From positions 1,606,633-1,670,632 of the forward strand of contig NZ_KZ987724.1 of NCBI RefSeq assembly GCF_003614185.1: 64,000 nucleotides of DNA, in the 5' to 3' direction. Under the pieces are notes generated by a model. That model ran no database searches. It was not told where the DNA came from and saw nothing but the letters and a program-made list of their open reading frames with translations. The position numbers and the translations under genes are program-made. Within the stretch, counting starts at the first letter, position 1. Every line of letters begins with the position of its first letter. This DNA comes from Paenibacillus aceti (GTDB lineage: Bacteria > Bacillota > Bacilli > Paenibacillales > Paenibacillaceae). This document shows positions 34,515-61,419 of this stretch, in pieces.

Positions 34515-35207
34515 TTATTCGTAGGTGATTTCTAATGAGTTCGTAATTTCATTGTATACGACTCCAGCCCCTAGACCGCGCACGAAGACTTGAGCCGGAA
34601 CATAGGTGACGCCATTTATCACCTTCGGTGCCGCGCTCGCTGTTTCCGCCTTTCCGTTGTAATACACCGTCTTGCTTCCCAGCGTCAAGGTCATCGCCCA
34701 TTCCGCCCTCTCTACCAGGATTGTTCCGGTCTCCTTGCTCCAGGTCACCGTCGCTCCCATCCCTTCAGCAATTTCCCGCAGAGGCAGCAGATTCGTATTC
34801 TCATAGATCAGCGGATCGCTGTCAAAGGCCAGCTCGTTCCCGTTAACATACACGACTAATCCGGATTTCTTATAGGTCGGTGCGGATGGCTTGGACTTGC
34901 TTTGAGTAGTGGTCGTACTTTTACTTTTCGTAGTCGTTGTCTTACTCTTGGTGGTTGTCTTGCTCTTCGTCGTTGACTTGGTCTTGCTCTTCTTGCTTGA
35001 AGAGTTGGACTTAGACTTCGTTGAGCCTCCACCGTTATGATAGTGATACTCCCCGTACTCCAATCCCCACTTCTCGCAATTCGTGCGACAGGTATGCCCG
35101 CCCTTGGAATCCGTTCTTCCCGGATGGGCCGACACCGCAGCCATAGAGCCTGTGAAAATCAGAACTACCGATAATACACCTGCACAAAGACTTTTTCTCA
35201 TTCCCAT
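34515..35207 (-). CDS. Secreted YHYH-domain / copper-amine-oxidase-N-like protein
   Basis: About 230 residues. A signal peptide (MRKSLCAGVLSVVLIFTG...VSA) precedes a compact YHYH domain starting HPGRTDSKGGHTCRTNCEK and ending YGEYHYHNGG, with two Cys and several His. A roughly 45-residue Ser/Thr/Lys linker follows. A stalk domain of the Cu_amine_oxidN1 type closes the protein (LVVYVNGNELAFDSDPLI, NTNLLPLREIAEGMGATVTW, GVTYVPAQVFVRGLGA). I use the ATG at 35207 because AAGGAG touches the earlier ATG at 35219. It is probably cell-wall associated through the cationic linker; metal binding by the YHYH domain is inference. Confidence 0.82.
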   Translation of the reverse strand: MGMRKSLCAGVLSVVLIFTGSMAAVSAHPGRTDSKGGHTCRTNCEKWGLEYGEYHYHNGGGSTKSKSNSSSKKSKTKSTTKSKTTTKSKTTTTKSKSTTTTQSKSKPSAPTYKKSGLVVYVNGNELAFDSDPLIYENTNLLPLREIAEGMGATVTWSKETGTILVERAEWAMTLTLGSKTVYYNGKAETASAAPKVINGVTYVPAQVFVRGLGAGVVYNEITNSLEITYE

Positions 35208-35382
35208 AATGACATGCATCTCCTTAATATGTAGTAGGATACACCCATTTATGGCTTATACTAGCATAAGTGTACAGTAAGGTGAAGCTGTTATGTAAAA
35301 TTTATCCTGGCCCGGGCTGTACGTTTTTTCTAGTTCGCTTTCAAGTCCTTAGGATCTGCTTTACTTCAGGCAAAATAAAAAA

Positions 35383-35560
35383 ACTGCAAATCTGCAGGCT
35401 TTTGTGCTCCAAACAACCTGTTTATAAGGAATTCCTGCAAAAATGCAGGCTTTCGTGCCGAATTTTCCAAAATCGGGCTAGTACCGGGCAAAAACCTGCA
35501 TAATCGCAGGTATTTACAGGCTGAGCCTGGTTTCATGAGCAAAAACTGCATTTTTGCAGG
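35383..35560. repeat. Four-hairpin array A (CCTGCA-N4-TGCAGG cores)
   Basis: Cores: ACTGCA-aatc-TGCAGG (35383), CCTGCA-aaaa-TGCAGG (35434), CCTGCA-taat-CGCAGG (35495) and ACTGCA-tttt-TGCAGG (35545). Centres are 35390.5, 35441.5, 35502.5 and 35552.5, so the spacings are 51, 61 and 50. Array B at 43.3 kb has exactly the same spacings. Stems are conserved while the 4-nt loops vary freely. The array fills most of the 438-bp gap between the YHYH and PAP2 genes. Function unknown. Confidence 0.8.
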
Positions 35561-35645
35561 AATTGTGGATGAGCCACAAAAAATCCCGCCCCCTCAAATG
35601 TAAGATGCATTATACAATGCTCGTCCTATGATGTCACGATCTTGA

Positions 35646-36311
35646 TCATGGCCGCGCATAGCCTCTCTTCTTCTCATACGCCGCTTCCAGATACCCTTGA
35701 TACAGCCAGATTGAAGCTGTCAGCCAGCAGGCGCTGATAAGATATCCGCCGAGCACATCGCTCGGATAGTGCACGCCGAGATAAATGCGGCTCACCCCGA
35801 TCGTCAGGATCAGGCAGGCCCCGATCACAATGACAGCGATTCTGCCTAATAAGTAGGGGATATGCTTCCAGATTAAGAAGACAATCGCCCCATAGAGACT
35901 AAAGGCCGCCATCGAGTGACCACTAGGGAAGCTAAAGCCGGTCTCTTCGATAAGTCTGTGCAGAGATGGACGATTACGCCGGAAGAGCTCCTTAAGCAAT
36001 AGGTTGAGCAACGCCGATCCGCCTACTACCACAAGGAGAAACACAAGCTCGCTGCGATGATGCAGCACGAAGTACAGAAATAGGAGCGTCGCCAGCAAAA
36101 TAACCATCACCGGCAGCTGACTGCCAATCCAGGTGAACAGCTTCATGAACCTTGTCCAGGAATCGGATTCAAGCCCCTGCACATAGGCGATGATCTGATT
36201 ATCGAAGGTATGAATTCGCGCTGCCCCGATCCAGTAAGCAATAAGTCCGAACCCGATCAAGCATAGCAAACTGATTAGAAATGTGTATGAAAATTTTACT
36301 TTAATACTCAT
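35646..36311 (-). CDS. PAP2 family membrane phosphatase
   Basis: About 221 residues with five to six helices and the three PAP2 phosphatase motifs: KELFRRNRP, the catalytic PSGHSMA and SRIYLGVHYPSDVLGG. Such proteins dephosphorylate lipid phosphates such as undecaprenyl-pyrophosphate or phosphatidylglycerol phosphate at the outer membrane face. I start at the ATG at 36311 (MSIKVKFSY); an ATG 27 bp earlier with GAGGG 8 nt upstream is equally possible. It is monocistronic. The substrate is not determined by sequence; a role in bacitracin tolerance is known for BcrC-like members. Confidence 0.85.
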   Translation of the reverse strand: MSIKVKFSYTFLISLLCLIGFGLIAYWIGAARIHTFDNQIIAYVQGLESDSWTRFMKLFTWIGSQLPVMVILLATLLFLYFVLHHRSELVFLLVVVGGSALLNLLLKELFRRNRPSLHRLIEETGFSFPSGHSMAAFSLYGAIVFLIWKHIPYLLGRIAVIVIGACLILTIGVSRIYLGVHYPSDVLGGYLISACWLTASIWLYQGYLEAAYEKKRGYARP

Positions 36312-36399
36312 AGCTGTCGCACCACCTGTCCCATCCACGATACCCTCAAGTATCGGCTAACTGGAATCTTCTATTCCACAACTCGCCCTCATAAACAAA

Positions 36400-36422
36400 A
36401 AATCCTTATCGAATAAGGATTT
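36400..36422 (-). terminator. Terminator after yebC
   Basis: AAATCCTTAT and ATAAGGATTT form a perfect 10-bp stem with a 3-nt loop, and the minus-strand tail is TTTTTGTTTA. It lies about 40 bp past the yebC stop. Confidence 0.8.
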
Positions 36423-36464
36423 CTTGTTTATACTATTTTATTTCAAGAGCCGTCTCGCTCTATC

Positions 36465-37184
36465 TTAGTCCTCAAGCTCGACATTATGATACACCTGCTG
36501 CACATCCTCCAGGTCCTCCAGCGCATCGACCAGCTTCTCGAACTGAGCCTGCGCATCCTCTGGAAGAGTTACATAGTTCTGAGCGATCATACTCAATTCA
36601 GCAATCGTAAACTCCGTAACCCCAGCTGCGTTGAACGCATCCTGAACCGCCTGATATTGATCCGGCTCCGCATAGACGATGACCGACTCGTCTTCTTCCA
36701 GAATGTCACGAACGTCAACATCCGCTTCCATCAGCAATTCGAGCACTTCGTCAGAAGTCTTGCCTTCAACCCCGAATACAGCTGTGGCATCGAACATATA
36801 AGCGACAGAACCGCTTACGCCCATATTACCGCCATTCTTATTAAATGCTGCCCGGACAGCAGAAGCAGTACGATTCACATTATTCGTCAGCGCATCCACG
36901 ATAATCATCGCGCCGTTCGGCCCAAAGCCCTCATAGCGAAGCTCGTCATAAATTTCATCCGCGCTGCCCTTGGCTTTTTCCAGTGCGCGATCAATGATCG
37001 CTTTTGGCACATTATATGTCTTGGCCCGCTCCAGTACGACCTTCAGTGCACGGTTCGATTCCGGATCCGGTTCGCCCTTCTTGGCAGCCACATAAATTTC
37101 TACGCCAAATTTCGCGTAAACCCGGCTTGTATTTGCATCCTTTGAAGCTTTTTTCTCTTTAATATTATTCCACTTACGTCCCAT
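36465..37184 (-). CDS. yebC: YebC/PmpR family translation/transcription regulator
   Basis: 239 residues matching the YebC family: N-terminal [20 protein letters not shown], then [48 protein letters not shown] and the C-terminal alpha/beta domain. The ATG at 37184 follows AGGTG; a GTG 9 bp upstream is less likely. YebC proteins were described as DNA-binding regulators, and some members relieve ribosome stalling (TACO1-like). The MGRKWNNIK start is typical of the YeeN-like Bacillus subgroup. It is monocistronic. Confidence 0.9.
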
Positions 37185-37365
37185 CTTGTTCACACCTCAT
37201 TATGATTTATGTTTAATTCATCCAGAACAAAGGGTGGGTGGTGACGATTTATTGAGTATCAGATCCATATATTCAACCCCAGAAGCATGATGTATACCCA
37301 GTTTATTATATATCGTACAGCGGCACGAAAACAAGCCGTCCTTCGTTCTGAACCCTTTTTACGAG

Positions 37366-39324
37366 CTACAACTGCACATGCATATGCCGATCCGCTTCAT
37401 CCCATGGAACACTGTATCCTTGACCCTTCGCACAAAAAATCGAGGCGGAGGTGTACTCCGGATCTGCGTTTTTATCGTAATTTCGGCTCTCAATGACCAC
37501 CTTCGATTGATGGCAGGGCTGATACCCGCCAATTTGCAGCGACAGTGCCCCCCTCCCCTTCGAGAAGGAAGCCAGCTCCGCACTATAATTCATAAAGGTT
37601 GCCACCGGTACCGTACCGCTAATCATCGCCTGATCTCCACTTGTCTCTGGGGGATTGAATGAGCCGTGAGCTTGCCGGATATCCGACATCACGCGACCGA
37701 TCAGCTCTAAATCAACCTTGATTTTGAACATATAATAAGGCTCCAGCAGTATATTCTCCGCCTTCTCCAGCCCCTGCCTCAGCGCCCGATGCGTAGCCTC
37801 CCGGAAATCTCCGCCGCTCGTATGCTTGTTATGGGCTCGTCCGTTCAGCAGCGTAACAATAACGTCCGTCAGCGGAGACCCGGTTAATAACCCGGGATGC
37901 TCCTGCTCCAGCACATGCTGGCCGACCAGATTCTGATAGCCAGAACTTAGATGATCAGGATGACATTCATTTCTGAAAATAACCCCGCTATCCCTCGGCC
38001 CAGGCTCAAGCTTCAAATGCACCTCCGCATAATGGCCGAGCGGCTCAAAATGCCCGCAGCCATACACTTCGCCTGCAATCGTCTCTTTATATAATATTTC
38101 CGGAGTGCCGAAGGCTACCTGCAGCTTGAAGCGATCCAACACAACCTGCTCCAGCACTTCAAGCTGTATCGCTCCCATAACATGGATATACAGCTCCTGC
38201 AGCACCTCATCCCAGGTAACATTCAGCGAGGGGTCCTCCGCATCTAGCATCTGGAAGTATCGCTGTACCTCTCTTACAGACAGCTTCGGATCGAACAGAA
38301 CCCTGGATTTGAGCGCGGGCACCAGTTCATACCGGGCACGATGCCGCAGTTCTCCCAAGCCATCGCCTACAGCAGCCTCCGCCAGGCCGGTCACTGCAAT
38401 AAGCTGCCCCGCTTCGGCCTCTTCAATAAGAGTATATTTCTCGCCATTATACGAACGAAGGGAGGTTACTTTTTCCTGAATCCTCTCTCCACTATGGTCC
38501 ATATACTGAACCTCATCCCGAACTCTCAGTCTGCCGGCAGTGATCTTCAGAAAGGTTAAGCGGGTTCCCTGACTCTCATGGCGGACCTTATAGACCCGGG
38601 CGGCAAAAGGCGCTTCCCTATCATACTCGATATGGGATAACCGCTCCAGGTGACGAAGGAATCGATCGATCCCCTCATCCATCAATGCTGACCCATACAT
38701 TACTGGAAAAACAGCACTATCTTTTACCAATCTAGCCATAGTATTCAGGACTATCTCTGTATCATAGCTACCCTCCAGATAGCTCTCCAGCAACTGTTCA
38801 TCATGCTCAGCGATCGAGGCGACCAATCCCTCCTCCAGCTCATTAGCGTATAGTTCACCGTGAACCATCACTGCGTGCGGAGTAAGCTGCTGATGAATCT
38901 GTTCCAATACAGCCTGAAGATCAGCACCGGTACGATCCATTTTATTAACGAAAAATAGGGTTGGGATGCTATGCTTGCGCAGAAGCTGCCACACCGTCTC
39001 CGTATGACCCTGAACTCCCTCTACCGCACTCAGAATCACAACAGCATAATCCATCACTTGCAGAGAACGCTCCATCTCTGCTGAGAAATCGACATGTCCC
39101 GGTGTATCGATGAGATAATAGGTTGAGCCTTGATAATTCATCATCGCCTGATCGGCAAATATCGTGATTCCGCGTGACTTCTCCAATTCATGTGTATCCA
39201 GAAAAGAGTCCTGATGATCCACTCTCCCCTTGCTGCGGATACTGTTCGTATGATAGAGCAGTTGCTCGGCAAATGTCGTCTTCCCCGCATCGACATGCGC
39301 TAGCAGCCCGATGGTCTTATTCAT
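37366..39324 (-). CDS. TetM/TetO-like ribosomal protection GTPase
   Basis: About 652 residues with EF-G-like architecture. The GTPase domain shows G1 AHVDAGKT (9-16), G2 RGIT, G3 DTPGHVD, G4 NKMD and G5 GSA. Beta-barrel, EF-G III/IV-like and C-terminal domains follow, ending VPWDEADRHMHVQL. The ribosomal-protection family ejects tetracycline from the ribosome. Divergent chromosomal members in Bacillus and Paenibacillus carry the same domains, and whether this one confers resistance is unknown. I use the ATG at 39324; a TTG 12 bp upstream is an alternative. It is the last gene of a five-gene same-strand run, with no leader-peptide attenuator of the tet(M) kind visible in the 36-bp gap. Confidence 0.85.
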   Translation of the reverse strand: MNKTIGLLAHVDAGKTTFAEQLLYHTNSIRSKGRVDHQDSFLDTHELEKSRGITIFADQAMMNYQGSTYYLIDTPGHVDFSAEMERSLQVMDYAVVILSAVEGVQGHTETVWQLLRKHSIPTLFFVNKMDRTGADLQAVLEQIHQQLTPHAVMVHGELYANELEEGLVASIAEHDEQLLESYLEGSYDTEIVLNTMARLVKDSAVFPVMYGSALMDEGIDRFLRHLERLSHIEYDREAPFAARVYKVRHESQGTRLTFLKITAGRLRVRDEVQYMDHSGERIQEKVTSLRSYNGEKYTLIEEAEAGQLIAVTGLAEAAVGDGLGELRHRARYELVPALKSRVLFDPKLSVREVQRYFQMLDAEDPSLNVTWDEVLQELYIHVMGAIQLEVLEQVVLDRFKLQVAFGTPEILYKETIAGEVYGCGHFEPLGHYAEVHLKLEPGPRDSGVIFRNECHPDHLSSGYQNLVGQHVLEQEHPGLLTGSPLTDVIVTLLNGRAHNKHTSGGDFREATHRALRQGLEKAENILLEPYYMFKIKVDLELIGRVMSDIRQAHGSFNPPETSGDQAMISGTVPVATFMNYSAELASFSKGRGALSLQIGGYQPCHQSKVVIESRNYDKNADPEYTSASIFCAKGQGYSVPWDEADRHMHVQL

Positions 39325-39360
39325 TCCTCTATTCAATCCTGATCACTTCCCGTTTGCTTA

Positions 39361-39867
39361 TCACCTGTTGTCTCTGTTGTCTCGATCCGCCACCATACAC
39401 AGAAACTCAACATCTTCCCCGTTGACTGCGGATAATACAGTACCTATTGGCGTGAATCCATTCTCTTCATATACCCGCTTCGCCCGTTCATTGAAGGTGG
39501 CTACGACGAGTCTGAATCTGGTTCGCCCAAGCTGCTGCTGCAGATAACTCATGCCTTCTTGTACAAATGTACGCCCTAGCCCTTGTCCCGTTAGGGAAGG
39601 TTTCATGGCAAGACCGATATCCAGCCGCTCGCGATCCTCATAGAATCCAGCGCGATACCCACCTGAAACTCTGGCCGATAATCCATGGCAGAAAAATCCG
39701 GCAATATTACCAGCCTCATCTGTCGCAGAGTAATAGTCTCCGTTTAACAGATCGGCAAGTCCTTCCTCACTCGGGTCCATATTATAGAAGTTATAGGGCG
39801 GCGGATACTCCCATTTGGAAATAACAATCGCCGCTTCTCTGGTGATTTTGTTAAAACTATAGCGCAT
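39361..39867 (-). CDS. GNAT N-acetyltransferase
   Basis: 168 residues, a single GNAT domain: IGLAMKPSLTGQGLGRTFVQEGM is the acetyl-CoA loop and VATFNERAKRVYEENGFTPIG the last strand-helix. The ATG lies 3 bp after the stop of the histidine phosphatase gene, so translation is coupled. Thirty-six bp separate it from the TetM-like gene downstream. Substrate unknown. Confidence 0.85.
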   Translation of the reverse strand: MRYSFNKITREAAIVISKWEYPPPYNFYNMDPSEEGLADLLNGDYYSATDEAGNIAGFFCHGLSARVSGGYRAGFYEDRERLDIGLAMKPSLTGQGLGRTFVQEGMSYLQQQLGRTRFRLVVATFNERAKRVYEENGFTPIGTVLSAVNGEDVEFLCMVADRDNRDNR

Positions 39868-39870
39868 CTG

Positions 39871-40509
39871 TTAAAACTCCCCCGTAGCTTCTTTATAGTG
39901 GCTTATATCGGCATGAAGTAAGATTTCCTTCGTGTCGCCATCCAGCGAAACCTGGCAGAGGCAGGCGGGGTGGATATAAGGAAGCTCCCATAACTGCGGC
40001 AGCGGCCGCTCCTCGAAGTAAGACATCAGCAGCTTGACGGCGACTGTATGCGTAGTGACCAGAATCGACTTCCCTTCATGCTCACGCGCGATTTCAAGCA
40101 GCTTCTTCCGGACTCGGTCATATACCTGCTGGTAGCTCTCGCTTCCCTCTACAGCGAATTTCTCAGGATTTTTCCAGAAACTATGCAACTGTTCCGAGTA
40201 TAATCGCTCAATTTCATCCTGCGTCATTCCCTCCCAGACGCCCAGATTAATCTCTCGGAAATCATCGGTTTCAACAATATCTATCTGCTTATGATTACTA
40301 TAATCTCTAATTAGCTCCGCTGTCCTTCTTGCCCTTGGGCTTGAACTGGAATAGATAATATCGATCGGCTTATCCTGTAATGCCTCACCGAGCCATGTCG
40401 CCTGCTGAACACCTAACTCTGTCAATGGGGAATCCTGATGTCCCTGCATTCGACCCAATACATTCCATTCCGTCTGTCCATGCCTGACGATGTAGATATT
40501 GGTTTTCAT
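39871..40509 (-). CDS. Histidine phosphatase family protein (PhoE/GpmB-like)
   Basis: 212 residues. The catalytic RHG motif is IVRHGQTEWN (residues 6-15), the partner Glu lies in the GVWEGMTQDEIE region (~83-94) and the second His in TTHTVAVK (~148-155). The enzyme forms a phosphohistidine intermediate; members act as phosphoglycerate mutases, alpha-ribazole phosphatases or broad phosphatases. The ATG at 40509 follows GGGAG; an open frame upstream overlaps the TPR gene but has no conserved residues. It is the middle gene of the 41.7-37.4 kb run. Confidence 0.88.
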   Translation of the reverse strand: MKTNIYIVRHGQTEWNVLGRMQGHQDSPLTELGVQQATWLGEALQDKPIDIIYSSSSPRARRTAELIRDYSNHKQIDIVETDDFREINLGVWEGMTQDEIERLYSEQLHSFWKNPEKFAVEGSESYQQVYDRVRKKLLEIAREHEGKSILVTTHTVAVKLLMSYFEERPLPQLWELPYIHPACLCQVSLDGDTKEILLHADISHYKEATGEF

Positions 40510-40576
40510 TAAGCTCACTCCCGTTTCGTTACAATTTTCCGAGCCCTTTGGGGCGCGCTTGAAGAGCGTAAAAGCA

Positions 40577-41059
40577 TCAAAATATCTCGTCCAGTCTGCC
40601 TGCATAGAAGCGAATCGCTCTTCTATAATCCTGAATCCCCTGATCCTGGCTCGTCTCGGCCAGCTCGATCAACAATAGCTTCATCGCAGTCTCATACTGC
40701 TGCAGATTATACAAGGTCATGGCATAGAACACCTTGAATTCTCTGGCTTCTGGAAATTCAGCGATCGCAGCGGCAAATATTTCGCCGGATTCCCGGTACA
40801 TCCCTAATGTTCGATAAGTGCTACCCAGACCGAGCAGCGCCCGTCTCCGCGCTTCACCCGCAAGCCCTAAGGACAATGCCCGTTCATAATAGGGAATAGC
40901 CTCCCGTTCCAGCCCCATAACATCATGAACCCATGCCAGCTGGAAGAGAAGCCGCGGATCTTGCGGTGATGATTCTTCGAGCTTCAAGAGAAGCTCCCTG
41001 GCCTCTGCGTGCTTGCCTGCTTCTCGTAAAGAGATCGCAGCCTGTAATGATGTATCCAT
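40577..41059 (-). CDS. Tetratricopeptide repeat protein
   Basis: 160 residues built of about four TPR helix pairs (for example RLLFQLAWVHDVMGLEREAI, ALLGLGSTYRTLGMYRESGE and VFYAMTLYNLQQYETAMKLL). There is no signal peptide, so it is a cytoplasmic protein-interaction scaffold. GGAGGG precedes the ATG. Similar small TPR proteins are common in Bacillus and Paenibacillus with no assigned role. It lies between the nucleotidyltransferase-like and phosphatase genes on the same strand. Confidence 0.85.
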   Translation of the reverse strand: MDTSLQAAISLREAGKHAEARELLLKLEESSPQDPRLLFQLAWVHDVMGLEREAIPYYERALSLGLAGEARRRALLGLGSTYRTLGMYRESGEIFAAAIAEFPEAREFKVFYAMTLYNLQQYETAMKLLLIELAETSQDQGIQDYRRAIRFYAGRLDEIF

Positions 41060-41109
41060 CGCGATCCTCCCTCCACTTGTTCATATATGTAATCCCTTAC
41101 ACCTTACCA

Positions 41110-41661
41110 TTACTCTTCATCGAAAGTAAGCAGCGACCATAAAAGATGCCACTCTTTTTGCCTGACACGCTCTAAATAATATTCGCGATCCTCGAAGTAT
41201 GGGCTCCTTGTAACGATCATATTGAATAAGTCATCCAGTCCGTGCGGGGCAAGGATGACGATCTGATCCTCCGGATCAAGCATCGCCCCGACAGCCGTCG
41301 CCGTCTCAGGCCAGCGCCTGACCGCATCCAGCGTGGAAAGATAAGGCTCCGCTCCATTACGGATATGCATTCTGGCCTGATTCTTCACCGACCACTTATC
41401 ATTCCCGGCGCTGCTCCTTAATTCGTTCTCCAGTTGCCAATCGCGCTCCTCCGAGATATTCTGCGGGTCGTAATAGATCACATCTATGTCGCTATAGGTG
41501 CCGCGATTTTCATATCCGTGTAGACGATCCCATACATAATTTCTAATGTATCCCGCAGCGACATAACACTGAGGCAGGCCCAATTGCCGAACAAGCTGTA
41601 AATCATGAATGATCTGCTCATCCTGGCTTAAATACTGGACCAGTCTAGTCTCCAGCTTCAT
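41110..41661 (-). CDS. Nucleotidyltransferase-like protein (NTP_transf_6 / DUF925 type)
   Basis: 183 residues. A GYIRN segment (~37-41) is followed by YSDIDVIYYD (~56-65), the paired-Asp signature of pol-beta-like nucleotidyltransferases in the DUF925 family. A later block, LSTLDAVRRWPETATAVG, is strongly conserved there too. The substrate is unknown. It is the first gene of the five-gene minus-strand run ending in the TetM-like GTPase. The Shine-Dalgarno site is GGAGGG-like, upstream of the ATG at 41661. Confidence 0.82.
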   Translation of the reverse strand: MKLETRLVQYLSQDEQIIHDLQLVRQLGLPQCYVAAGYIRNYVWDRLHGYENRGTYSDIDVIYYDPQNISEERDWQLENELRSSAGNDKWSVKNQARMHIRNGAEPYLSTLDAVRRWPETATAVGAMLDPEDQIVILAPHGLDDLFNMIVTRSPYFEDREYYLERVRQKEWHLLWSLLTFDEE

Positions 41662-41786
41662 TTAAGATTACCCTCCTTACAAAACCGAGTTAAAGACGCT
41701 CTAGTCTTTATTTCCGATTCTACCGATTAACTGATAGCTTTGGCAATCTCTCATTGTGCATTTTTTACTTTTCCGGCAAAAAAGAA

Positions 41787-41813
41787 CGGGCATCTTATTC
41801 GCTAAGACACCCG
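41787..41813 (-). terminator. Terminator of the GH88 gene
   Basis: CGGG-ca-TCTTA pairs with TAAGA-ca-CCCG around a TTCGC loop. The minus-strand tail is GTTCTTTTTTG. It shares the 15-nt core TCTTATTCGCTAAGA with the terminator at 48833-48863. Confidence 0.75.
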
Positions 41814-41842
41814 CTCCTGCTCTATATTGTGACTATTCTACT

Positions 41843-42964
41843 CTATTCATACCAATATCCCTTAATACCCTTGTCTATGCGTACCAACGCCTCCAAGTAG
41901 TAGTAATCTCCCCAGATCATATAATCATCCGGCGCACGATTTCCTCTTACATGATAGGAGCCATGCTTCAGTAGACCCTCCGCCTCGGCAAGATCCGTGC
42001 TCGCATACTTCTCGACCAATCCGGTCATCGTGCGGTTCAGCCCATCTTCGAGCAAATCGCGGTCAGGATCATTGTCCCCTAGCCATTCCAGCAGCTCCAA
42101 CATACCGCAGGCGGCGATTGCCGATGCGGAGCTGTCACGCGGTGTTCCCTCTTCCACCGGGACGTCAAAATCCCAATATACCACGCCATCCTCAGGAATG
42201 CGCTCAATAAAATATCTCGCCAGACGCTTGGAGGTATCCAAAAAGGTCTCATGCTTCGTATAACGATAAGCCAGAGCGAAGCCGTATATTCCCCAAGCCT
42301 GGCCCCGTGTCCACGTCGAGCCATCCTCATAGCCTTGATGCGTACCGCCGCGAATCGCATTTCCGTTCTCTGTATTGAAGTAGAAAGTATGATACGAGGA
42401 GCCGTCGCCGCGAACGAGAAATTTCTGGCTGATCAAGGCATGGCGCATGGCGATGTCATGATACTTCCGATCCTGCGTCTGCTCATACGCCCAGAACAGC
42501 AGCGGAAGATTGAGCAGGCAATCGATGATGATCCGGCCGCCATTCTCCGGATCTTCTTCCTTCCCCCAGGCTTGAATAATCCCGATCCGAGGCCGCCAGC
42601 GCTTTGATAATTTATCCGCCGCTTGAAGCGCAACCTCGCGCGCCTCCTCACTTCCCGTAACACGCCACTGCGCTACCGCTGACAATGAATAGAGGAAGCC
42701 GATATCATGATGATCCAGAGCAACATGGCGCTCCAGACGATCGCGGAAATTGGCCAGATACGACTCCGCCGCATCTTTATAGAAGGCATCTTGTCCATAT
42801 TCATAGGCAAGCCACATCATGCCGGTATGGAATCCCTCGATCCAGTCGTCATTGCCTCCCCATTCATAACGCTGACCCTCCGTAATATGAGGCAGCTTGC
42901 CCGGATGTTTAACAATATTACTCTTGATCTTCGTCAGTGCATCATGAATTGCCGCATTCCACAT
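41843..42964 (-). CDS. GH88-type unsaturated glucuronyl hydrolase
   Basis: 373 residues of (alpha/alpha)6 fold. It carries the N-terminal WIEGFHTGMMWLAYE, the HHDIGFLYS block with the first catalytic-site Asp, IIDCLLNLPLL with the second Asp, and TWTRGQAWGIYGFALAYR. The family removes the 4,5-unsaturated uronic residue left on oligosaccharides by polysaccharide lyases. There is no signal peptide, so it is cytoplasmic. The gene is alone: no lyase, transporter or kduI/kduD gene is nearby, so it relies on uptake encoded elsewhere. GAGG lies close to the ATG. Confidence 0.9.
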   Translation of the reverse strand: MWNAAIHDALTKIKSNIVKHPGKLPHITEGQRYEWGGNDDWIEGFHTGMMWLAYEYGQDAFYKDAAESYLANFRDRLERHVALDHHDIGFLYSLSAVAQWRVTGSEEAREVALQAADKLSKRWRPRIGIIQAWGKEEDPENGGRIIIDCLLNLPLLFWAYEQTQDRKYHDIAMRHALISQKFLVRGDGSSYHTFYFNTENGNAIRGGTHQGYEDGSTWTRGQAWGIYGFALAYRYTKHETFLDTSKRLARYFIERIPEDGVVYWDFDVPVEEGTPRDSSASAIAACGMLELLEWLGDNDPDRDLLEDGLNRTMTGLVEKYASTDLAEAEGLLKHGSYHVRGNRAPDDYMIWGDYYYLEALVRIDKGIKGYWYE

Positions 42965-43291
42965 TATTCCTCATCTCCCATGTCATGTATAGTATCTGAT
43001 ATAATGCTTAGCTCTGATCTAGCGTAGAATCATATTAGGCACTGTGCGCGCGAATCACAAACACTATGTAATAGTCCCGCCTCTGGACAACCTGCCACAT
43101 TATCCCCCTTCGTTCGAATTATAAGGTGCAAATGCTCCAACCCATCAATGATGGCGCTTTCAATATAGTGCTTGATTATGAATCCTTGCACTAGGGCTTA
43201 TAAGGATTATAATCGCTATAGGATAATTGGGTACAGGTAAAATCATACTTTCTTAGAATCGTAACATATAGAGTGTCATCTACCCGAAAAA

Positions 43292-43469
43292 CCTGCAATT
43301 ATGCAGGAATTTTGCCATTTCCCCTAGCTGAGAGAGTAAATTCCTGCGAAAATGCATCTTTTTTCTCCGGATAAGCCTGATTTCGCAGAAAATAGTGGGA
43401 AAGCCTGCATATTTGCAGGAATTTCCTAGAAACGAGCGATTTGGGACGAAAAGCCTGCACTTTTGCAGG
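43292..43469. repeat. Four-hairpin array B (CCTGCA-N4-TGCAGG cores)
   Basis: Cores: CCTGCA-atta-TGCAGG (43292), CCTGCG-aaaa-TGCATC (43343), CCTGCA-tatt-TGCAGG (43404) and CCTGCA-cttt-TGCAGG (43454). Centres are 43299.5, 43350.5, 43411.5 and 43461.5; spacings 51, 61 and 50 are identical to array A, 8 kb away. The sequence between cores is not alike. It lies in an 824-bp gap between GH88 and a response regulator; the first 320 bp of that gap show nothing else. Confidence 0.8.
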
Positions 43470-43530: not shown

Positions 43531-43680
43531 TTAAGCCCGATCATGCCCTGCAAAATACCGTGCGACGACCTGCTCGATTTCCGTCTTCATAAAGCCGGCA
43601 AACTCAAGCAATAGCTCAGGCTCTAACTCATCAAACTGCGCGAGCTGCGCGTCGTCAGAACCGTGATAAGCCGCAGACAT
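43531..43680 (-). CDS. Small ORF, possible gene remnant (49 residues)
   Basis: ATG to TAA encodes 49 residues (MSAAYHGSDDAQLAQFDELE...FMKTEIEQVVARYFAGHDRA) with GGGGA 7 nt upstream. The QFDELEPELLLEFAGF stretch faintly recalls the start of carboxymuconolactone-decarboxylase-like proteins, but everything after it is missing. It may be a short unknown protein or the remains of a larger gene. No terminator or partner gene supports it. Confidence 0.35.
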   Translation of the reverse strand: MSAAYHGSDDAQLAQFDELEPELLLEFAGFMKTEIEQVVARYFAGHDRA

Positions 43681-61249: not shown

Positions 61250-61259
61250 TTAGCCCCAA

Positions 61260-61330
61260 TAGCGATGCCACGTTTCGTTAGATTTGGAAAACGCCTCTTT
61301 TGACGCAATTAGCGATACCCTGTTTCGTTA
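61260..61330. repeat. Pair of TAGCGA-N9-TCGTTA palindromes, 50 bp apart
   Basis: TAGCGA-N9-TCGTTA at 61260-61280 (centre 61270) and 61310-61330 (centre 61320). A CCTGCA-aagt-CGCAGG core follows at centre 61370.5, again ~50 bp on, nested in the terminator. The inverted form of the same palindrome pair occurs at 22211-22281. Confidence 0.6.
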
Positions 61331-61347
61331 TAAACTAGATAACGCGA

Positions 61348-61393
61348 AAAATCCCGGGAAGGCCTGCAAAGTCGCAGGCTTTTCCGGGATTTT
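61348..61393. terminator. Nested bidirectional terminator between ampS and the peptide ABC operon
   Basis: The outer stem AAAATCCCGG/CCGGGATTTT (61348-61357, 61384-61393) encloses an inner CCTGC/GCAGG stem. A-rich and T-rich flanks on both sides allow it to end both convergent transcripts. Confidence 0.8.
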
Positions 61394-61419
61394 CGAGGTA
61401 GGATATGGTCGCCGCTGCT

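Follow-up and report, generated by a model that had tools for sequence, protein, structure and literature searches.

Two intergenic arrays of four palindromes in the Paenibacillus aceti genome, array A (35383..35560) and array B (43292..43469), are two copies of one dispersed element. Both lie within the window, a 64,000-nucleotide stretch of contig NZ_KZ987724.1 (positions 1,606,633 to 1,670,632 of the forward strand), in whose coordinates they are given. The element is ~180 bp long, carries four palindromes and is present in about eighty copies per P. aceti chromosome. It belongs to a family of DNA elements with four dyads and helical phasing; the family is spread over the order and is larger than first noted. 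In the best reading of the sequences, the four dyads would lie on one helix face of a DNA-wrapping site, and a topological role is predicted by analogy with known bacterial elements.

Copy number, spacing and helical phasing of the element

The P. aceti genome (main contig 5.57 Mb) contains 181 exact CCTGCA-N4-TGCAGG words, against a single one for the reversed control. For core pairs of the shorter form CTGCA-N4-TGCAG spaced 45-74 bp apart, the genome has 65 places and the control none. Among 50 of these places the spacing is 50/51 in 46, 61 in three and 62 in one, so that the rule is not a coincidence of two arrays. An earlier interpretation of this DNA, made from its letters and here called the sequence-only reading, had named random palindrome spacings across the genome as the outcome fatal to it, and this outcome did not occur.

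A sequence-only model built from 13 aligned P. aceti arrays yields 156 matches in the genome, with 77 positions mapped and ten further places represented by shorter fragments; most elements are matched on both strands because the element itself is nearly symmetric. All 70 copies examined have a middle spacing of 61, from an allowed range of 57-65, and 64 of them have 50 or 51 at both outer spacings. The geometry of these copies, like that of most relatives found with the same model, is not wholly independent of it; the less biased checks are the core-pair word scan above and, as given below, the outer spacings in GTDB loci and a gap-pattern search in genome G028. Between P. aceti copies the core arms are 92% identical and the spacers 47% (25% expected by chance; mean pairwise identity), the highest identity of any whole-element pair being at most 81%. 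This comparison includes 62 of the 70 copies; 60 of those 62 enter the pairing alignment described later, and 64 of the 70 the central-block scan. The conserved unit consists of eight TGCAGG-NN-TTT half-sites, with centres rich in A/T, and conservation ends within ~14 bp beyond the first and last palindrome. The DNA between the cores, previously held to be unrelated, is diverged instead and carries a helical rhythm, and the loops, described as merely variable, are A/T-rich with a position-specific consensus.

The spacings correspond to 5-6-5 turns at ~10.15 bp per turn. With the sites masked, the guanine-cytosine (GC) content of 85 spacer columns varies with a period of 10.05-10.2 bp, a rhythm as strong as which appears in 0 of 5000 column permutations, a test that ignores correlation between neighbouring columns. 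The phase of this rhythm lies 1 degree from that of the sites. Spacer GC is in the site phase in 78 of 78 P. aceti arrays and in 124 of 126 other arrays (202/204 in total), the latter including 25 Fontibacillus near-copies. By species group, the rhythm is significant in P. aceti, P. alba/ferrarius, G008, metagenome-assembled genomes (MAGs), P. faecis, Cohnella, P. apiarius, P. eucommiae, J2TS4 and D2_2. Outside the array it stays weak for ~60 bp and has all but vanished past 90 bp. Four genomes with other cores (G026, G022, G011 and G028) have it too, in a scan restricted to spacings of 50-52 with a middle spacing of 60-63 or 50-53, where GC is the test and geometry is not. A common rhythm in species with dissimilar spacers points to selection on the bending of double-stranded DNA. 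The placement of all four sites on the same DNA face, put forward in the sequence-only reading, is supported by the 5-6-5 turns and the in-phase spacer GC; the same observations, with the cores kept at four orthologous places (below), support the ordered protein-DNA assembly suggested there.

Model matches are found in 22 of the 39 genomes of a first relative set, in 59 of 198 order-level genomes (16 of 43 genera, in families f1, f4, f6 and f7) and in 3 of 299 class-level genomes (all three of P. aceti's family, in a sample whose share from outside the order is not stated), with P. aceti counted each time and with stricter filters and few candidates scored per genome in the order and class surveys. 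Since the model derives from 13 P. aceti arrays, it undercounts lineages with other cores. Carriers known by name include species of Paenibacillus as well as Fontibacillus panacisegetis and Cohnella. The spacers differ between species and the 50/51-61/62-50/51 frame stays; in the GTDB loci, the outer spacings, which the search did not impose, are 51 in 87 cases, 50 in 33 and 49, 52 or 53 in 4. The core word changes to an AACTGCA type in G022, to TGCA with other flanks in G011 and to TTGCA with a five-base centre in G028. In the G028 copies seen, the spacings are 51/52-52-52, the middle gap being one helical turn shorter, and the frame is thus kept modulo one helical turn. A pattern search in G028 with gaps of 6-36 allowed found only gaps of 26 and 27, at 5 and 3 places against 0 in controls, and the pattern occurs in 1 of 20 genomes of G028's family. 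From a set of 112 loci, six are omitted in the neighbour-gene and GC-phase analyses: L183 and L189 are tandem repeats, and L168, L196, L200 and L205 come from MAGs labelled Moraxellaceae, Gammaproteobacteria, Aminicenantes and Lachnospiraceae and hold two cores only.

In the window itself, the core centres lie at 35390.5, 35441.5, 35502.5 and 35552.5 in array A and at 43299.5, 43350.5, 43411.5 and 43461.5 in array B, with the spacings of 51, 61 and 50 first reported for both. An alignment of 13 copies reveals that A is oriented opposite to B, so that in the element frame A reads 50-61-51 and B 51-61-50; the identical geometry holds as read on the forward strand, but the exact match is partly luck and the rule is 50/51-61-50/51. 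Array A, reversed in the element frame (minus strand; model match 35373-35566), runs from dyad H4 (35383..35398, ACTGCAAATCTGCAGG on the plus strand) through H3 (35434..35449) and H2 (35495..35510, following the H2 consensus with the G-T position typical of it) to H1 (35545..35560). Array B, in forward orientation on the plus strand, is the best model match (E 5.6e-44) and comprises H1 (43292..43307), H2 (43343..43358, CCTGCGAAAATGCATC, again of the H2 consensus), H3 (43404..43419) and H4 (43454..43469). The form CCTGCA-N4-TGCAGG, initially ascribed to every core, is exact in one of four cores of A (H3) and three of four of B (H1, H3 and H4); the remaining three of A are each off by one base, and the second core of B is off by three. 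Array A is 85 bp from the end of a called open reading frame (ORF; 35646..36338, minus strand) whose product we take, from its motif, to be a PAP2-type phosphatase, and 163 bp from the start of another (34515..35219, minus strand). Array B is 327 bp from the start of a 373-aa ORF (41843..42964, minus strand) and 61 bp from the end of a small ORF (43531..43680, minus strand).

Elsewhere in the window, a long inverted repeat resembling a terminator (61343-61396) has a lone CCTGCAAAGTCGCAGG core at its centre, and single cores in similar hairpins also occur at other places, e.g. L027. A second dispersed repeat (TCTAACGAAACTCCATATCGTTAT / GCGATACCACGTTTCGTTAGAG) is located at 61250-61345; it lies at most ~60 bp from an array in eleven P. 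aceti loci (L033, L050, L060, L065, L076, L081, L084, L085, L088, L092 and L095).

Genomic position and the proposed wrapped particle

The arrays are almost entirely intergenic, 69 of 70 copies lying outside ORFs called by a simple codon-score script, which leaves 5 of the 70 loci without a called neighbour on one side. Among the 65 copies with both neighbours, 41 are in co-directional, 18 in convergent and 6 in divergent gaps, against 30, 8 and 13 for control gaps of at least 100 bp at the same loci (convergent versus divergent, p 0.017). The median distance is 152 bp to 3' ends and 319 bp to 5' ends. In P. aceti, arrays lie within ~1.1 kb behind three of seven ribosomal RNA (rRNA) operons, one of them a partial array; this association has a p of 2.7e-4, for 90 arrays and a 1250-bp window chosen afterwards. 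In G016, of the same genus as P. aceti, arrays lie behind 3 of 3 complete 5S matches, with three more copies at contig starts behind 5S ends, and in G008 an array lies behind one of eight rRNA operons. Five genomes have an array between an rRNA operon and a gene resembling ctsR. Neighbour gene clusters are mostly shared synteny (the rRNA-ctsR gap, era/recO and cinA/recA, as we presume these neighbours to be named) or large generic families; Fontibacillus array L231 presumably also lies near era.

Along the chromosome, the 77 mapped copies display no gradient with distance from dnaA (Kolmogorov-Smirnov p 0.56) and no fork polarity (36 of 77 co-oriented with the replication fork, p 0.65). Copies seem sparse at ~1.9-3.4 Mb, but with dnaA located this zone does not reflect an origin-terminus effect. 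Origin- or terminus-linked sites of the Noc, SlmA, parS and KOPS type were rejected as candidates, neither the axis nor the fork-strand bias of such sites being seen, and the partition-type role once suggested for the arrays finds no positional support.

Our leading proposal, to which we give a little less than an even chance, is that the four palindromes and helix-phased spacers of the element together make up a single protein-DNA particle in wrapped form, whose predicted task is to take up supercoils generated by transcription, or to confine them, where transcription units end. A dimeric sequence-specific protein would occupy each dyad, and bending of 180-300 bp around the complex would be made possible by the phased tracts of A/T and G/C. 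The wrapped particle may then act on DNA topology, by analogy with bacterial interspersed mosaic element 2 (BIME-2) and strong gyrase sites in E. coli. Candidate binders are gyrase itself, a wrapper resembling Lrp/AsnC or RemA, or another factor. A more far-reaching version is conceivable, if rather doubtful: a dedicated protein, as four dimers, would wrap ~200-300 bp in the 5-6-5 frame at some eighty nucleosome-like sites per chromosome in the order, capping transcription units such as rRNA operons and co-evolving with the recognition word lineage by lineage while the frame is kept.

Several observations weigh against the supercoil-confining particle. Outside convergent gaps lie 47 of the 65 arrays with both neighbours, and no array lies near seven of the eight rRNA operons of G008. 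The gyrase motif is degenerate and the half-sites much stricter; the arrays also differ from it in length and in period (10.05-10.2 bp against 10.75 bp). None of 29 other loci has array A beside its PAP2 homologue, as judged with a CCTGCA-type detector by which arrays with other cores would be missed, and two of these array-less loci encode 81-82% identical proteins. In many genomes of the same genus no arrays are detectable. The GC rhythm, whose permutation test has the limit given above, fails to reach significance in Fontibacillus (p 0.25 for 25 near-copies) and in P. sambharensis (p 0.17 for 3 arrays), and the P. timonensis group gave no rhythm p-value.

The same structural evidence, namely the spacing rule, the GC rhythm and the lack of a pairing signal, would also suit platforms of a dedicated nucleoid protein. 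Its wrapping of DNA by several dimers, in the manner of Lrp/AsnC or RemA, would then serve chromosome folding or gene silencing and have no particular tie to supercoil relief. The strict half-sites suggest a specific protein, and for two Firmicutes proteins, RemA and LrpC, a nucleosome-like wrapping of DNA is proposed, with RemA on sites that recur every ~10 bp, as described in PMC8481266. This explanation leaves the enrichment at convergent gaps and rRNA operon ends unaccounted for. An Lrp octamer would be expected to contact sites ~3 turns apart, unlike the 5-6 turns seen here. A search of the recurring neighbour genes for a binding protein found no candidate regulator near the arrays, and no candidate gene recurs beside them. 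Such nucleoid platforms are considered unlikely, though they are the strongest competitor of the supercoil-confining particle.

Persistence, mobility and pairing of the palindromes

Four of 16 arrays in G008 occupy the same place as a P. aceti array, with both flanks matching (77 P. aceti loci compared), and a fifth matches a P. aceti locus on the rRNA side only. Within the four orthologous pairs, agreement extends to 166 of 192 core letters, 54 of 64 NN positions and 76 of 96 AAA/TTT positions, against 156 of 336 for the spacers; seven of the eight outer flanks are mostly unalignable, the other matching in 56 of 83 columns. The cores are kept while the spacers and most flanks diverge, in agreement with the selection on palindrome position claimed from the letters. 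Conservation at orthologous gaps, which the sequence-only reading proposed as a check, holds for the cores of these four pairs but not for the place of array A. With cores kept at four places and the array A place empty elsewhere, the element is long-lived in some places and gained or lost in others.

The empty place of array A, the high copy number and the within-species subfamilies would be accounted for if the arrays were a non-autonomous mobile element, with palindromes and spacing acting as recombinase recognition sites that serve only its spread. Arrays do ride elements with terminal inverted repeats: in Fontibacillus, the array lies inside a ~440 bp repeat (both ends present in 10 of 14 aligned copies), and in P. 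alba/ferrarius inside one of ~600 bp (4/4). The internal sequences of these two repeats differ, so there may have been two captures, with the array as cargo. In P. aceti, conservation does not pass ~14 bp beyond the array, so there are no terminal repeats, and none of the 62 compared copies forms a pair above 81% identity. The cores are also kept at orthologous places where the flanks are saturated, and the helical rhythm extends outside the array. Mobility as the sole function is improbable, and the plain readings as a miniature inverted-repeat transposable element (MITE) or a terminator are disfavoured.

Repetitive extragenic palindromes (REPs) and BIMEs, which are associated with RAYT, were tried as candidates and rejected. 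High copy number and extragenic position are shared with the arrays, but the stem of the arrays is not kept by complementary changes (below), and no Y1_Tnp match for a cognate Y1 (RAYT) transposase is found in 6 of 11 genomes with core pairs (G003, G007, G008, G013, G015 and G022). P. aceti contains fourteen Y1 transposase copies of 157 aa and equal score, one of them ~1 kb from the array at 4284940; we take them to be ordinary IS200, as of a recently active IS200-type element.

Other repeats are found around individual arrays. The cargo-repeat ends GGGGCTGTCCCAAAAG and GGGGCTGTCCCATAAG, presumably IS1182-like, occur in F. panacisegetis (e.g. L154, L157 and L224) and P. alba/ferrarius (L125, L166, L197 and L226). 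To the right of the P. aceti array L086, a terminal repeat GGGGCTGTCTCAAAAGTC starts ~30 bp beyond the array. In P. apiarius (L152 and L192), a 1592-bp segment, 98.6% identical between the two places, begins or ends at most ~40 bp from the core pair of an array, a layout that an insertion sequence arriving in or next to the array would leave. In P. eucommiae (L174, L201 and L187), the array lies within a longer repeated stretch, which in L174 and L201 includes another large inverted repeat upstream.

The core stems are paired in 80.0% of cells, against 80.5% with shuffled partners (60 copies), 489 of 500 shuffles being at least as high, and alternative stems across the spacers are paired in 86.5%, against 86.7% in shuffles. 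The left and right palindrome halves vary independently, so no hairpin is being kept. One position of H1 is even anti-pairing (13 of 64 against 22.5 expected), and an all-against-all pair scan of the central block in 64 copies found scattered pairs only (best z 3.2 and 3.0). In most copies the bases that immediately flank the core do not pair, and the stem that the second dyad could form is often poor. Relative to co-directional transcription, 19 arrays have the same orientation and 22 the opposite, giving neither a strand bias nor a fixed transcribed strand; Rfam has 0 matches in the window and 3 in eight relative loci, all of them rRNA. The four RNA stem-loops offered earlier as an option, and with them a structured RNA or intrinsic terminator, were given up on these grounds. 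Despite an AAAA-stem-TTTT form like that of a bidirectional terminator and the proximity to 3' ends, it is very improbable that the palindromes act as RNA or single-strand hairpins, for example as four bidirectional terminators or a structured RNA, which would also leave the helical rhythm without explanation.

Comparison with known systems

If the wrapped-particle proposal is true, a common bacterial order carries a chromosomal element with sites and spacers both locked to the DNA helix, which would speak directly, from sequence, for a specific wrapping of bacterial DNA akin to that in nucleosomes. The old question on the role of dispersed intergenic palindromes at the ends of transcription units would become testable, with the 180-bp array as a ready bait for finding the binding protein. 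Literature searches, mostly at title level, found no description of such an element in Paenibacillus or its kin, and the main text of a paper on REP/BIME biology (PMC3733652) does not contain the words Paenibacillus or Firmicutes.

Like the arrays, the gyrase-binding BIME-2 and REPs of enterobacteria are intergenic palindromes in many copies, often at 3' ends of transcription units, and a topological role is predicted. REPs preserve their stems by complementary changes and are linked to RAYT transposases, according to PMC2817692, whereas the arrays show neither kept pairing nor a matching transposase pattern and, unlike these elements, set four dyads in a fixed helical frame. The arrays share with MITEs, ERIC, BOX and bcr1 that they are short, non-coding and multi-copy; they differ in having no terminal inverted repeats in P. 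aceti and a frame that is found across species while the spacers are replaced.

The E. coli gyrase motif, likened to nucleosomes by its authors, has helix-phased GC and a symmetric layout like the arrays, and gyrase sites are over-represented in BIME-2 and downstream of rRNA operons, as reported in PMC6379681. The motif spans ~130 bp, is degenerate and varies in GC each 10.75 bp in its flanks around a non-periodic centre (PMC6379681). The arrays, in contrast, have phased GC over at least 100 bp with the shorter period of 10.05-10.2 bp, cover ~180 bp plus flanks, contain strict TGCAGG-type half-sites and maintain the rhythm through the centre. If gyrase is the only binder, the element would be a variant of strong gyrase sites.

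RemA and Lrp/AsnC regions resemble the arrays in their proposed nucleosome-like wrapping and, for RemA, in ~10-bp periodic contacts, as outlined in PMC8481266; as a wrapping site of either protein, the arrays appear compatible in phased layout only. There are few such regions; they are linked to promoters, and those of RemA are poorly conserved, whereas the arrays number about eighty and consist of strict palindromes. Nucleosome-positioning DNA has the same alternation of A/T and G/C each ~10.1-10.2 bp over at least 180 bp; unlike it, the arrays are bacterial and carry four sequence-specific dyads, with no histone implied.

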